Assembly: GCF_014217805.1 (NCBI RefSeq)
Contig: NZ_CP055156.1
Span: 1,736,001-1,800,000, forward strand
From: Adhaeribacter swui
Lineage (GTDB): Bacteria > Bacteroidota > Bacteroidia > Cytophagales > Hymenobacteraceae
Direction of reading: 5' to 3'
DNA length: 64,000 bases
Under the pieces are notes generated by a model. The model made no database searches. It had not been told where the DNA came from and saw only the letters and a list, made by a program, of their open reading frames with translations. Positions 57,763 through 61,971 of the stretch are shown here, one piece after another; within the stretch, counting starts at the first letter, position 1, and every line of letters starts with the position of its first letter. A program made the translations under genes and the position numbers.

Positions 57763-58078
57763 TAAAATGTAATGTTATGATTGTTGATGGAGGCTGATAC
57801 CAGAGTAACGGGAAATTCATTTTTTTATTCCGGCTTCTCTAATATTGTAGAACTACGGAATATATAAAACTTAGTCCGGTTATCCACAAATTTTATCCGA
57901 TGGAAAGGTTTTCCTTTGGAGCCTTTTCAAGTCTCCATGCTCGGGTTCCATCTTATTTGAACGGGCTGAGTTTGCCTCATGGCCGGCAGGCATCGTTTGA
58001 CTCTTTCGGGCTGGTCTAAGCTTCCTTTGCTCGTGCCTCGCAATGCTGCGCACCGGAACCTTAGAAGGCCCTCAACAG

Positions 58079-58122
58079 CCAAACTGGTGTCAGTTACTTT
58101 TAATTAAATCATACCAGTTTGG
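58079..58122. repeat. 10-bp inverted repeat (24-base centre)
   Basis: CCAAACTGGT and its exact complement flank an AT-rich centre. It could be an end of the adjacent GC-richer block or a transcription signal; the T run of a terminator is missing. Confidence 0.55.
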
Positions 58123-58169: not shown

Positions 58170-58219
58170 ACGATCTTTAATCCTGAGAATCTCTAAATCC
58201 TATAAATCCCGGTTCAGAC
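58170..58219 (-). repeat. GTCTGAA-led, GATT-phased repeat block 1
   Basis: Read on the minus strand it begins GTCTGAACC right after the TAA stop of the CehA/McbA gene, then GATT occurs at offsets 3, 12, 20 and 29 after the leader (steps 9, 8, 9). Two similar blocks lie at 59846-59934 and 60106-60193. See findings. Confidence 0.7.
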
Positions 58220-59833
58220 TTACCTCAATTGCTTTTTCATGCCTTTAATAACTTGCTGGGTTTCGGCAATACGTCTTTCCAGACCGGCGCGGTATTGCCA
58301 GGCACGGTATTGCGGATCGGCTTGGCGGTTTTTTAAATCTTTTTTAAGTTCTTTTAAGTATCCTTCGCTTAATTTTAAATATTGAGGAGCAGTAGCCGGG
58401 TTATGAAAGTTTTTGCCATCAACCTGCACGTATACCGGCGTCGTGTGGGCCGCTTGGGTAGGATTACCGTAGGCGCGGGCTGCCAACCAAATGCCTTGCT
58501 CTGCTGGTATATCAAGTGTCAAGGAAAGATGCTCCGTTGATTGCCCTGCATCTGAAATGCTAACCCGGCCCAAAACTTTACCGTGCCCCACAATCTCTAA
58601 ACTTTGTAAAGGTACCTGAGCAGCGTTGCCGTAAGCATGTGCCGTAATATGTAAGGTTGTTCCTTTACTTACCGGCAATTTGCTACCGGGTAGCTGGCCA
58701 TTTACTTCAAAGCTCAACATGGGACCATTGGAAACAAAGGTATGACCGGCGGCCAGACCGGCTTTCCAGCTATTGTAGGTTAAGGGGCCATCCACGTAAG
58801 TATAGAAACGAACATTGCCCAGTCGCGCTGAACGTTCGGGTGGTCCGGTAGCGTGGTCGTTGCCGCACCATGGAAAATCGGAGCCGGCTACCGCGGTAAC
58901 CGGAATGCCCAGATCCAGCAAGTGGTAGTAATGGTTGGTAATTAAAGGCTTATCCGAAGCGCAGAATTGCAGCAACTCTAGTACATCTACTTTGCCGCGC
59001 AAGCCATCCAGCGTCAAGCCCCGGTAGCCGTGAAACGTTTCGGCTTGGTGCGCATAACCGCCCAGTCCGCCTAATTCGCGGAGCTTATCAAAAACTTTGT
59101 CGTAGTAATAATATTCTTTGCCAAACCGAACCTTGTCGGAAGCGCCTATTCCTAAGGCATGACCTAGTTCGGGGGTACGTGGGTCTTCCTGACCGGAGGT
59201 CAATAAATAATCATTTTTCTGATACACGCCTTTCTCACCCCAGGCATATTGCGGGTAATAAGCTTCCCAGAAATCGCCCATGCGCAGCATTACGCCTACG
59301 TGTACATCCTCGGCCTGGGTCCAGGTTAAAAGCAAAGAATCTTCGCGCGGCGAACGCCGGATGTGGATGTGATCATCGGCAGAGTACCAGCCTTTTTCGG
59401 GCATATTAATCCACCGTTTTAGTTGGTAGTTTTGCTGCTGTACCTGTCCGGCTTCGATTTGTAGTTGGTGTTTTTGTTCGAGGTATTCCGGTCCTTTAGC
59501 CAGTGATAATTGGTACGTACCCGGCGGCAAATCCAAACTAAATTGTCCGGCTACATAATATGAACTATCCGGTTGGTAATCGTAGCCATCCGCATGGTCC
59601 CATACACCATACATTACACCCACAGCAGCTTTTGGTAGCTTTTTCACTGCCCAGCCATTCCGGCTCAAACGCACCCGGACCGGCGTTAACTGGTTGGTTG
59701 TAGCATCGGTTACCTGTACTTCTAATCGGCCCGAAGCTGGTTGTTGGGCCAAAAGCGGAACAGGCAGTGCTAAACCAATAATCAAAAAAAACTGAAATAG
59801 AACAACGGTTAGAGTTTGGCTAGCTTGGTGCAT
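58220..59833 (-). CDS. CehA/McbA-family metallohydrolase
   Basis: 537 residues. A signal peptide (about 1-29, ending near LLAQQ) precedes an N-terminal Ig/carbohydrate-binding-like beta domain (35-135, RLEVQVTDATTNQLTPVRVR). The PHP-like metal domain begins at WYSADDHIHIRRSPRED near 148, with the His pair of the motif, and continues through QAEDVHVGVMLRMGDFWEAY, GYAHQAETFHG and VAGSDFPWCGND. The C-terminal part (470-537) is helical and Lys-rich. Members hydrolyse esters or carbamates in the periplasm (for example CehA on carbaryl); the natural substrate is unknown. Its stop codon abuts a dispersed repeat block. Confidence 0.85.
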   Translation of the reverse strand: MHQASQTLTVVLFQFFLIIGLALPVPLLAQQPASGRLEVQVTDATTNQLTPVRVRLSRNGWAVKKLPKAAVGVMYGVWDHADGYDYQPDSSYYVAGQFSLDLPPGTYQLSLAKGPEYLEQKHQLQIEAGQVQQQNYQLKRWINMPEKGWYSADDHIHIRRSPREDSLLLTWTQAEDVHVGVMLRMGDFWEAYYPQYAWGEKGVYQKNDYLLTSGQEDPRTPELGHALGIGASDKVRFGKEYYYYDKVFDKLRELGGLGGYAHQAETFHGYRGLTLDGLRGKVDVLELLQFCASDKPLITNHYYHLLDLGIPVTAVAGSDFPWCGNDHATGPPERSARLGNVRFYTYVDGPLTYNSWKAGLAAGHTFVSNGPMLSFEVNGQLPGSKLPVSKGTTLHITAHAYGNAAQVPLQSLEIVGHGKVLGRVSISDAGQSTEHLSLTLDIPAEQGIWLAARAYGNPTQAAHTTPVYVQVDGKNFHNPATAPQYLKLSEGYLKELKKDLKNRQADPQYRAWQYRAGLERRIAETQQVIKGMKKQLR

Positions 59834-59845
59834 CCGGCTTTTATT

Positions 59846-59934
59846 GTCTGAACCTTGATTTACTTGATTAAAGGATTAACTTGATGCTATCTGAATCGGG
59901 AAACAAACAGATTATACGGGTTTCGCAGATGATA
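59846..59934 (+). repeat. GTCTGAA-led, GATT-phased repeat block 2
   Basis: It begins GTCTGAACC at 59846-59854, followed by GATT at offsets 3, 12 and 20 and GAT at 29; a second leader-like TCTGAATC stands at 59890-59897, followed by a degraded copy of the GGATT series. About 42 bases (59845-59887) are complementary to 60106-60148 with 3-4 mismatches. Confidence 0.75.
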
Positions 59935-59980
59935 AAATGTTAGAATGACCAGGTGAAATTTAAAGAATATGGGTAAAAAG

Positions 59981-60004
59981 CTCCCTTCCTTAGATAAGGA
60001 GGGG
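59981..60004. repeat. CCTTAGATAAGG-type hairpin
   Basis: TCCTTA at 59987-59992 and TAAGGA at 59995-60000 form a palindrome, extended by CCC/GGGG with one bulge. The following GGGGCAGGGATGGTTGAT is a kind of sequence I recall from repeats in Bacteroidota genomes, which I cannot verify here. Confidence 0.5.
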
Positions 60005-60105
60005 CAGGGATGGTTGATTTTGCAACAGAATCATTTTCCTAAAAACAGGACAACCGTTTCACGATCATCTAATGCTTTTATATCAGCCACTCTCTAATCT
60101 ACTTA

Positions 60106-60193
60106 GCATTAAGTTAATCCTTTAATCAAGCAAATCAAGGTTCCGACACTAATCTGCGAAATCCGTACAATCCGTTTAATCCGCGATTCAGAC
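60106..60193 (-). repeat. GTCTGAA-led, GATT-phased repeat block 3
   Basis: On the minus strand the G of the ABC exporter's TAG stop (60193) is the first base of GTCTGAATC; GATT then occurs at offsets 4, 13, 22 and 31 (exact 9-base steps). A second leader GTCGGAACC (60147 to 60139) is followed by GATT at offsets 3, 12 and 20. Confidence 0.78.
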
Positions 60194-61971
60194 TATACTA
60201 AAGCCGGCTTTTCTTCTACGTGCCGTTCGCCGATTTGCTGGCGCCACATGGCGTAGTACAAACCTTTTTGGGCGAGTAACTCCAGGTGTTTGCCCGATTC
60301 GGCAATGCGGCCGCGCTCCAGCACGTAAATACAATCGGCGTGCAACACCGTAGAAAGGCGGTGCGCAATTAAGATAGTGATGTGGTTGGCGTTCCGGGAA
60401 ACATCGCGGACCGTTTTGCTGATTTCTTCTTCGGTTAAAGAATCTAAAGCCGAGGTAGCTTCGTCGAAAACTAGTAAAGTAGGGTTACGCAACAAAGCCC
60501 GGGCAATACTTAAACGTTGCTTTTCGCCACCCGACACTTTTACTCCCCCTTCGCCCAAAACCGTATCCAGTCCTTTGTCGGCGCGGGCCAGCAAAGAACC
60601 GCAAGCCGCATTCCGGAGCGCTGCCAAACAATCGGCATCGGTGGCGTTTGGCGCGACGAACAATAAATTTTCGCGGATAGTACCGGCAAATAATTGGGTA
60701 TCCTGAGTAACAAAGCCCATTTGTTCGCGCAGATTATCCAGGTCTAGCTCCTCGCCCGGAATATTGTTGTACAAAATGCGGCCTTCCTCGGGTTTATACA
60801 AGCCTACCAGCAATTTTACCAGCGTTGTTTTACCAGAACCCGATGGACCCACAAAAGCAATGGTTTCGCCTAATTGCGTTTTAAAAGAAATACCATCAAG
60901 TGCCCGGCTGGCAGCAGTTTGGTGTTTAAACTTAACGTTCTCGAAAGCCAGGGTTTGAATAGTTTGGAGCGGCGCCGGATGGGCTGGCCGAACTTCTTTG
61001 GGCGTGTCTAGTATTTTCTGGAAGTTATCCAGCGAGACTTCGGTTTCGCGGTAAATATTAATAATGTTACCCAGTTCCTGTAATGGCCCGAAAATAAAGA
61101 ACGAATAAATAAACATGGAAATAAAATCGCCCACGGTTATCCGGTTAATAAATACCAGGTAGAGCATCAGCAACAAAATAACGTTGCGCAGTAAGTTCAC
61201 GCAGGTACCTTGCACAAAGCTCAAACTCCGGATGTACTTTACCTTTTTCAGTTCTAATTTTAAAATTTTGTCGGTGGTGTTGTTTAACCGCACTGTTTCC
61301 TGCTGCGCTAAGCCCAAACTTTTAACCAGTTCAATGTTGCGCAGCGATTCGGTAGTGGCACCGGCCAGCGAGGTAGTTTCGGCCACAATGGTTTTCTGGA
61401 TTACTTTAATTTTTTTACTCAGCACCGAGCTTAAAATACCCAGAATAGGCACTGCTGAGAAGTAAACCGGCGCAATAACCCAGTACACGTTAATGGCATA
61501 CACCACCACGAAAATTATCCCGATTAAAGAAGTGAAAAGCACGTTGATAAAATTGGAAATAAGCTTTTCCACATCAATCCGTACTTTTTGCAGCTTGCCC
61601 AGGGTTTCGCCGCTGCGCTGGTCTTCGAACACCGAATAAGGTAAATCCAGGGAATGGCGCAGGCCGTCGGAGTAAATCTGCGCGCCAAGCCGCTGGGTAA
61701 TCACGTTTACGTAGTAATCCTGAAAGGCTTTGGCAATGCGCGATACCATAGCGACACCCATCGCCAATAAAATTAAAGTACCGGCTCCTTTAAAGAACTC
61801 CGGGGTAGATAATTTTAATTTTTTGGTAACAGCAGCGGTCGCGTAGTCATCAATGATCTTCCGCAAAATAAGCGGGTCCAGGAGCGAAAAGGTTTGGTTA
61901 ATAGCGGCCAGCAATAAGGCCAGAAAGACCAACCACTTGTATTGTTTTAAATATTCAAAGAGCAGTTTCAT
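60193..61971 (-). CDS. ABC exporter, half transporter (permease-ATPase fusion)
   Basis: 592 residues. An N-terminal six-helix exporter membrane domain (about 15-320) with FEDQRSGETLGKLQKVRIDV as the coupling region is followed by a nucleotide-binding domain: Walker A GPSGSGKTTLVKL, Q loop MGFVTQDTQLFAG, signature VSGGEKQRLSIARAL, Walker B LLVFDEATSALD and the H loop IAHRLSTV. It works as a homodimer or with another half in the inner membrane, MsbA-like; the exported substrate is unknown. The stop codon coincides with the start of repeat block 3. Confidence 0.93.
   Translation of the reverse strand: MKLLFEYLKQYKWLVFLALLLAAINQTFSLLDPLILRKIIDDYATAAVTKKLKLSTPEFFKGAGTLILLAMGVAMVSRIAKAFQDYYVNVITQRLGAQIYSDGLRHSLDLPYSVFEDQRSGETLGKLQKVRIDVEKLISNFINVLFTSLIGIIFVVVYAINVYWVIAPVYFSAVPILGILSSVLSKKIKVIQKTIVAETTSLAGATTESLRNIELVKSLGLAQQETVRLNNTTDKILKLELKKVKYIRSLSFVQGTCVNLLRNVILLLMLYLVFINRITVGDFISMFIYSFFIFGPLQELGNIINIYRETEVSLDNFQKILDTPKEVRPAHPAPLQTIQTLAFENVKFKHQTAASRALDGISFKTQLGETIAFVGPSGSGKTTLVKLLVGLYKPEEGRILYNNIPGEELDLDNLREQMGFVTQDTQLFAGTIRENLLFVAPNATDADCLAALRNAACGSLLARADKGLDTVLGEGGVKVSGGEKQRLSIARALLRNPTLLVFDEATSALDSLTEEEISKTVRDVSRNANHITILIAHRLSTVLHADCIYVLERGRIAESGKHLELLAQKGLYYAMWRQQIGERHVEEKPALV

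Follow-up and report, generated by a model that had tools for sequence, protein, structure and literature searches.

Here we describe short arrays of phased repeats in two intergenic spacers of a 64-kb stretch of the Adhaeribacter swui chromosome (contig NZ_CP055156.1; the whole stretch is referred to below as the window). We propose, with moderate confidence, that these arrays belong to a new family of small, dispersed, palindromic inverted-repeat elements that are linked to a nuclease of the GxxExxY family, with the array type tied to the nuclease lineage. The element has the appearance of a mobile element of a kind not described before: among the matches listed in our database search, some copies carry one GxxExxY gene and most are gene-less hairpins of 83 to 175 bp.

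The initial annotation of the window had pointed to blocks at 58219 and 60193 on the minus strand and at 59846 on the plus strand, each with a 9-base leader, GTCTGAAYC, followed by GATT in a phase tighter than that of a simple AT-rich spacer. All three blocks were present, with GATT steps after the leader of 3/12/20/29, 4/13/22/31 and 3/12/20, respectively, and a second leader, GTCGGAACC, was located at 60147(-). The leader with two phased GATT units matched three times in the window but in none of 100 shuffled versions, and three GATT units at 8- to 10-base steps were observed six times in the two spacers, against a shuffled mean of 0.006 and a maximum of 1 (2,000 shuffles). The blocks are arms of inverted pairs, with the leaders facing outward. 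An arm consists of a leader and usually three or four short units at 8- to 10-base steps, the unit being GATT in types A and B and CRCRRAG (e.g., CACAGAG) in a wider type C. Type A reads GTCTGAACC NN GATT N5 GATT N4 GATT N5 GATT, and type B reads ATCRC GGATT followed by CGGATT units at 9- to 10-base steps. In the window, the arms at 59846(+) and 60147/60193(-) face each other and form one composite inverted pair (59846 to 60193), in which a plus-strand A arm with a degenerate B array inside it stands opposite a minus-strand A arm with a B array outside it (Table 1).

A genome-wide search for the degenerate pattern, as the initial annotation had advised, revealed further copies: GTCTGAAYC with two phased GATT units gave 7 matches (reversed control, 0), and the triple GATT gave 67 (reversed control, 11), many of which overlap within one array, the positions running as plus-strand and then minus-strand arrays. 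The proposal of a dispersed element with a 9-base unit thus stands with regard to dispersal and to a unit of 8 to 10 bases, with more copies in this genome and elsewhere, but the element is an inverted pair rather than a single block. The window and 24 further stretches covered 56 of the 67 matches, and the 11 isolated ones, about as many as in the control, were excluded by eye; for three of the 24 stretches (L055, L060, and L061), the matrices gave neither an A nor a B end. Two search patterns for type B were abandoned, the first, in which the spacing was wrong, having matched 1 of 59 genomes and not A. swui itself and the second having given 14 matches against 4 in the control in four genomes, which is near the control level. 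Type A arms cluster at 1.67 to 2.02 Mb of the genome, largely beside genes that we take to encode FtsX/MacB-type permeases. The pairs in this region lie between tandem genes of this presumed kind and often extend from one stop codon to about 10 to 28 nt before the next start codon. At another locus (L040, 953 to 1054), a Bacteroidales small signal recognition particle RNA (Rfam RF04183) was found just to the right of a nested B-A...A-B array pair.

Blocks of the kind that the initial annotation had mentioned for other Bacteroidota were indeed found, and the element extends well beyond this phylum. The pattern GTCNGAACCNNGATTN5GATTN4GATT has 20 fixed bases and should match about 0.5 times by chance in 257 Gb read on two strands; it returned at least 117 stretches in at least 14 named phyla. 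The matches listed include 52 from Bacteroidota, 27 from Poribacteria, 10 from Thermodesulfobacteriota, others, and 1 unassigned, and because many of these stretches are metagenome bins, single phyla are possibly misassigned. The 144 pattern matches among those listed define a bounded 43-bp end with the consensus TTGTCTGAACC, with little conserved outside it and without a GTAG tag; apart from the positions that the pattern itself prescribes, conservation is seen for TT at -2/-1, T at +3, and a fourth GATT at +37 to +40. A matrix derived from these matches (matrix A, which was thus trained on the same loci that it then scanned; matrix B was trained on A. swui arms) identified 207 ends in 811 kb of the listed loci and none in reversed sequences. 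Of 91 neighboring ends, 51 converge, 50 of them less than 3 kb apart, and 44 of these 50 close pairs span 83 to 175 bp. When the threshold was lowered, 57 of the 117 listed loci together contained 65 distinct pairs whose ends lie within 700 bp.

The A. swui genome encodes three GxxExxY proteins, which score 132.7 to 141.2 bits with the GxxExxY model (TIGR04256; cutoff, 35) and 128.3 to 134.3 bits with PDDEXK_3 (PF13366; cutoff, 22), and all three genes lie in or against arrays: one (L039) between B arms about 0.3 kb away, one (L059) flanked by two A hairpins, the leaders of which abut its start codon and its stop codon, and one (L044) with a lone A arm on one side and an A hairpin on the other. 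The same association was seen in the 117 listed loci, which had been fetched by DNA motif alone. They contained six GxxExxY frames, all 0 to 62 nt from an end, whereas S23 and the control family OsmC gave one frame (2.2 kb away) and none, respectively. At four of the loci (L098, L136, L164, and L174), the gene is enclosed by one converging pair (462 to 513 bp). S23/IVP proteins, used here for comparison, are a four-helix-bundle family known from intervening sequences of rRNA.

GxxExxY genes occur in 122 of 247 genomes sampled from the window's phylum (taken as Bacteroidota). We analyzed 90 GxxExxY loci from this phylum, which are the top of the match list and not a random sample. Flanking inverted repeats beyond 50 shuffles were found at 68 of them, and at least two phased units on both sides were found in inverted orientation at 43 and in direct orientation at 11, with none in one shuffle per locus. 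The unit is mostly type C (CACAGAG or CGCAAAG). As this unit had been chosen after the first 30 loci were viewed, we note that the 60 loci fetched after its definition included 46 with flanking inverted repeats and 27 with inverted phased units. In a uniform repeat test, which passed over one GxxExxY locus and two S23 loci, inverted repeats were detected at 20 of 29 GxxExxY, 17 of 30 S23, and 0 of 30 OsmC loci; direct repeats were detected at 3 of 30 S23 and 2 of 30 OsmC loci. A strict 4-mer chain test was positive at 7 of 29, 2 of 30, and 0 of 30 loci, respectively.

The array type follows the nuclease lineage. On a FastTree phylogeny of 99 GxxExxY proteins, the unit type of 63 typed rows (36 rows without a clear type were present but uncounted) required 5 changes, compared with a mean of 14.3 for shuffled labels, and none of 500 shuffles was as low. 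The eight loci with an A leader, two from A. swui, one each from Bacteroidales, Cytophagales, Marinilabiliales, and Fibrobacterota, and two from unclassified Bacteroidota, fall on one side of a branch, with 1 change against at least 6 in 200 shuffles; six of the eight had been fetched for carrying the A motif and one (L064) was labeled A by hand, while the tree was built from protein only.

D66, E76, and K78 were present in all 31 alignment rows (31 of 33 GxxExxY rows and 28 of 32 S23 rows were used) and were invariant in a second set of 30 rows. From the family motif, these are the predicted catalytic residues of a PD-(D/E)XK nuclease. The predicted structure (predicted local distance difference test score, 94.3) is nearest to SSO0001 (4ic1; E value, 7e-5; TM score, 0.58 by query length, with a large root mean square deviation), which we take to be a Cas4 protein. 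It is followed by LHK-Exo, lambda exonuclease, MGME1, and splicing endonucleases, but only four chains, all of SSO0001, have E values of <0.001. PADLOC gave weak Cas4b matches for one of three proteins. The PHROGs matches, also weak, were to a family without a known function, and a PDB search by sequence gave no match.

Outside A. swui, the hairpin loops are alike between copies in 1 of 1, 10 of 10, and 15 of 15 comparisons in Poribacteria, 3 of 3 in Spirosoma, and 5 of 10 in Desulfatirhabdium (genome groups for loop and partner-arm comparisons were set by record title, which merges Desulfatirhabdium assemblies), and the hairpins therefore disperse there as units. At one listed poribacterial locus (L184), several type A hairpins with alike loops lie within 8 kb. 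At the orthologous window site, arrays have been retained at the same edges in the sister species G006 and in the genomes G003 and G005, but their content differs; an arm related to that at 58219 stands 4 nt after the stop codon in G006, and none was seen in G003 or G005. At L041, where a gene that is presumably yidC faces a convergent gene, arrays are found at both stop codons in four species in spite of sequence divergence, and the pair is absent from G004, where the spacer is about 100 bp. The arrays remain recognizable at the borders of spacers that have diverged, which suggests that selection or renewal maintains them.

Several observations weigh against a mobile, nuclease-linked element. 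In A. swui, about 50 arms are matched by only three GxxExxY genes, and loops are alike in only 3 of 36 comparisons; these copies are old, or they are not copies of one hairpin. Arms missing from G003, G005, or G004 could reflect loss, and no insertion event was observed. Five of eight B pairs (L041, L042, L052, L054, and L056) enclose a clear terminator-like hairpin, and pairs that lie between convergent genes and enclose native-looking terminators are hard to derive from one compact insertion; this is the chief observation that the proposed explanation does not account for. In the window and in the sister species, A and B arms are interleaved rather than nested. At the stricter threshold, 64 of the 117 listed loci have only one end, and at L101 and L109 the gene lies beside ends and is not enclosed by one converging pair. 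No significant inverted repeat was found at 22 of the 90 phylum loci, no A or B end was found by matrix in the first 30 of them, L062 (L039) and L101 failed the flanking inverted-repeat test, and direct repeats were detected at 8 of 29 GxxExxY loci in the uniform test. Finally, the alignment behind the GxxExxY tree has few columns, and near-identical rows contribute to the clustering.

The initial annotation had suggested a target preference for gene ends, and the two contacts with stop codons on which it drew, that at 58219 after a TAA and that at 60193 sharing the G of a TAG, were both verified. In the A. swui genome, 33 of 54 ends face a stop codon and 20 of these 33 lie within -2 to +2 (8 of 15 for A and 12 of 18 for B; binomial P of about 1e-21 against an assumed 5 in 150 positions, a background that is a rough guess, with a few arrays, such as L043 and L054, scored twice). 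The other 21 ends point to start codons, and most of these lie at less exact distances. At motif loci of Bacteroidota, 15 of 43 ends lie within -8 to +5 of a stop codon, whereas points shifted by 60 to 120 give 0 to 3; in other phyla, the count is 4 of 43, which is at chance. Stop-codon abutment is therefore strong in A. swui and in Bacteroidota loci but is not a fixed property of the element, and the suggested preference holds as a local rather than a general rule.

Such placement might instead reflect a regulatory element of the 3' untranslated region, in which the arms would form an mRNA hairpin at the stop codon that acts on translation termination, mRNA decay, or read-through, and which would be kept by selection on the host gene with the nuclease as incidental cargo. 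Repetitive extragenic palindromic (REP) elements near stop codons are said to act in this manner in Escherichia coli. The zero offset at stop codons and the persistence of the arrays at L041 in four species agree with this idea, as do very stable RNA folds: the composite window pair, read on the minus strand, folds with -116.3 kcal/mol (z, -8.26; 100 shuffles), and an A pair at L045 has a z of -4.21. However, partner arms would be expected to agree at variable positions if it were the pairing that is kept, and within genomes, for 28 pairs from eight title groups, partners were hardly more alike than nonpartners (0.629 versus 0.616; P = 0.38). For pairs matched up by hand in A. swui, the differences were weak (type A, 12 pairs, 0.490 versus 0.444, P = 0.08; type B, 8 pairs, 0.654 versus 0.576, P = 0.05), and an earlier difference of 0.547 versus 0.390 had come from mixing genomes and vanished within them. 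As hairpin co-variation is weak or absent, a conserved RNA hairpin is not our leading reading despite the strong folds, and the phased RNA considered in the initial annotation is borne out for folding but not for likeness of partners. The start-facing ends, the chance placement outside Bacteroidota, and the GxxExxY link with its co-variation on the tree would all be left unexplained, and we consider a role in the 3' untranslated region unlikely.

What is kept, in the genome-wide version, is the unit and its spacing rather than pairing, and together with the weak match of partners this would suggest recognition in trans, with the GxxExxY lineage as the best candidate for the reader. A protein that reads the arrays had been envisaged in the initial annotation, and the match of array type to the GxxExxY tree makes such a reader possible, but GxxExxY is a single-domain nuclease and not a repeat protein. 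Conservation of the unit would also suit an unrelated host DNA-binding protein for which the arrays are multisite targets that mark spacer borders, for chromosome organization or insulation of transcription, and a pair can have one arm at either border of a spacer, with a terminator-like hairpin between them. GxxExxY genes would then be present by happenstance, which is hard to reconcile with an array type that follows the nuclease lineage and with the finding that all six frames in the 117 listed loci lie at ends; we hold this to be rather improbable.

A close parallel is provided by REPtrons and TIRtrons, which, in the available text of PMC3733652, are short dispersed palindromic repeats, some of which lie on both sides of a single small gene whose product acts on DNA, the gene-less copies being commoner. 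These systems use Y1 transposases (RAYT/TIRYT) (PMC3733652, same excerpt), whereas the element described here is linked to a PD-(D/E)XK nuclease and its arms are phased 8- to 10-base arrays with a GTCTGAACC-type leader and no GTAG (or CGTC) tag. Movement in trans by a Y1 tyrosine transposase would account for the similar size, the palindromic form, and the lack of a detectable target-site duplication: at the 65 pairs, matches of 4, 5, 6, and 7 bp were seen 5, 2, 1, and 1 times, against 5.7, 1.7, 0.3, and 0.2 expected. However, none of the three Y1_Tnp matches in the A. swui genome (one weak and one with two stop codons) has an A or B end within about 1.5 kb on each side. On these loci without arms and on the missing tag, a RAYT/REP origin was rejected and is to be regarded as very improbable. 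That the arrays are a chance product of AT-rich, low-complexity spacers is practically excluded by the shuffles, the reversed controls, and the occurrence of the pattern in at least 14 named phyla, even though the spacers look AT rich and GTCTGAA alone shows no enrichment as a 7-mer (3 matches versus 3.14 expected).

Other known systems share single features with the element. Bacterial miniature inverted-repeat transposable elements (RUP, NEMIS, ERIC, Nezha, and others) are, in the available text of PMC3733652, noncoding hairpins of 70 to 300 bp with terminal inverted repeats beside genes; here no target-site duplication was detected, and the inner repeats are phased arrays. No parent transposase with the same ends was found in the genome, where Y1_Tnp but not the DDE families was searched. 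Intervening sequences of 23S rRNA with an S23/IVP open reading frame resemble the element in having a single small open reading frame between pairable inverted repeats (PMC4990558, available text), but the window element lies outside rRNA and its linked gene is GxxExxY. No Rfam family exceeded the threshold in the window, and there was no match at arms there or in 18 loci. HEARO/IscB (OMEGA) systems likewise combine a repeat or structured RNA with one nuclease gene in a compact unit; their nuclease is different, and the arms here have no Rfam match. By reading, without a terminator scan, the arms did not resemble intrinsic terminators, being AT rich and distinct from the terminator-like hairpins surrounded by several B pairs. 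A literature search, which did not reach most subscription papers or any bioRxiv preprint, found no description of these arrays. In the papers covered, the GxxExxY family seems to be named only in passing; in the available text of PMC8934634, it appears once, beside a reverse transcriptase.

In the nuclease-linked element that we favor, each GxxExxY lineage would recognize its own arms through several phased contacts per arm, and nicking or resolution of the paired ends by the nuclease would lead to copies of the element at new intergenic sites. Hairpins without a gene would then be nonautonomous copies, and placement at stop codons may result from a local preference during insertion or from tolerance by selection. 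A more far-reaching proposal, which we put forward only tentatively, is a hitherto undescribed class of mobile elements in many bacterial phyla, in which a Cas4/lambda-exonuclease-like GxxExxY protein would read phased 8- to 10-base arrays and thereby mobilize itself as well as gene-less hairpins, without a transposase or target duplication, placing arms in Bacteroidota exactly at stop codons, and in which S23 genes would share the plan. Linking GxxExxY to a defined DNA end would turn an annotation orphan into a testable enzyme-substrate pair and account for a common class of phased intergenic repeats, and the element offers a model for how small repeats may disperse without a transposase. The origin of rRNA intervening sequences is called unclear in the available text of PMC4990558; if the S23 parallel holds, it would bear on this question and give two orphan families and that origin one common answer.

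All three S23/IVP genes of A. swui (L065, L066, and L067, at 2634503, 2990604, and 995940) are flanked by inverted short-phase repeats. Their units, GTATCA/GGTATT, AATTAGAAATT, and GTTGCAGGTT, differ from GATT, and the two of these loci that were checked for rRNA (L065 and L067) contained none.

Table 1. Arrays and neighboring genes in the window (positions are those of the window)
Feature	Position	Strand	Remarks
Lone type A arm	58179..58219	-	Leader GTCTGAACC and four GATT; begins directly 3' of the TAA of gene 58220-59833(-); A score 49.3, offset 0
Gene between both array sites	58220..59833	-	Named CehA in the initial annotation
Type A arm, left outer end of composite inverted pair	59846..59886	+	12 nt upstream of start codon at 59833; A score 55.7
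Degenerate type B array immediately inside left A arm	59893..59931	+	Leader remnant TCTGAATC from 59890; B score 20.6
Interior between composite arms	59932..60106		Read directly; short hairpin TCCCTTCCTTAGATAAGGAGGGG at 59982-60004
Type A arm, partner of 59846	60107..60147	-	Starts GTCGGAACCTTGATT; possible stem of ~33 bp with 59846 arm
Type B array, right outer end	60151..60193	-	Leader GTCTGAATC; its initial G doubles as the final base of the TAG of the ABC exporter gene; B score 31.6
ABC exporter gene	60193..61971	-	ABC_membrane and ABC_tran; stop codon overlaps array leader

The gene between the two array sites had no Pfam match at an E value of 0.001, and the name CehA is unconfirmed. Hairpins similar to the short one in the interior of the composite pair were seen at the orthologous site in G006 and G005 and are possibly a further dispersed repeat. 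At 57905 to 58102, the window contains one copy of another repeat, about 200 bp in length and of high copy number, which is not of the GATT type; it occurs at no fewer than dozens of places in the genomes of A. swui, G003, G005, and G006, with some copies arranged as adjacent inverted pairs.

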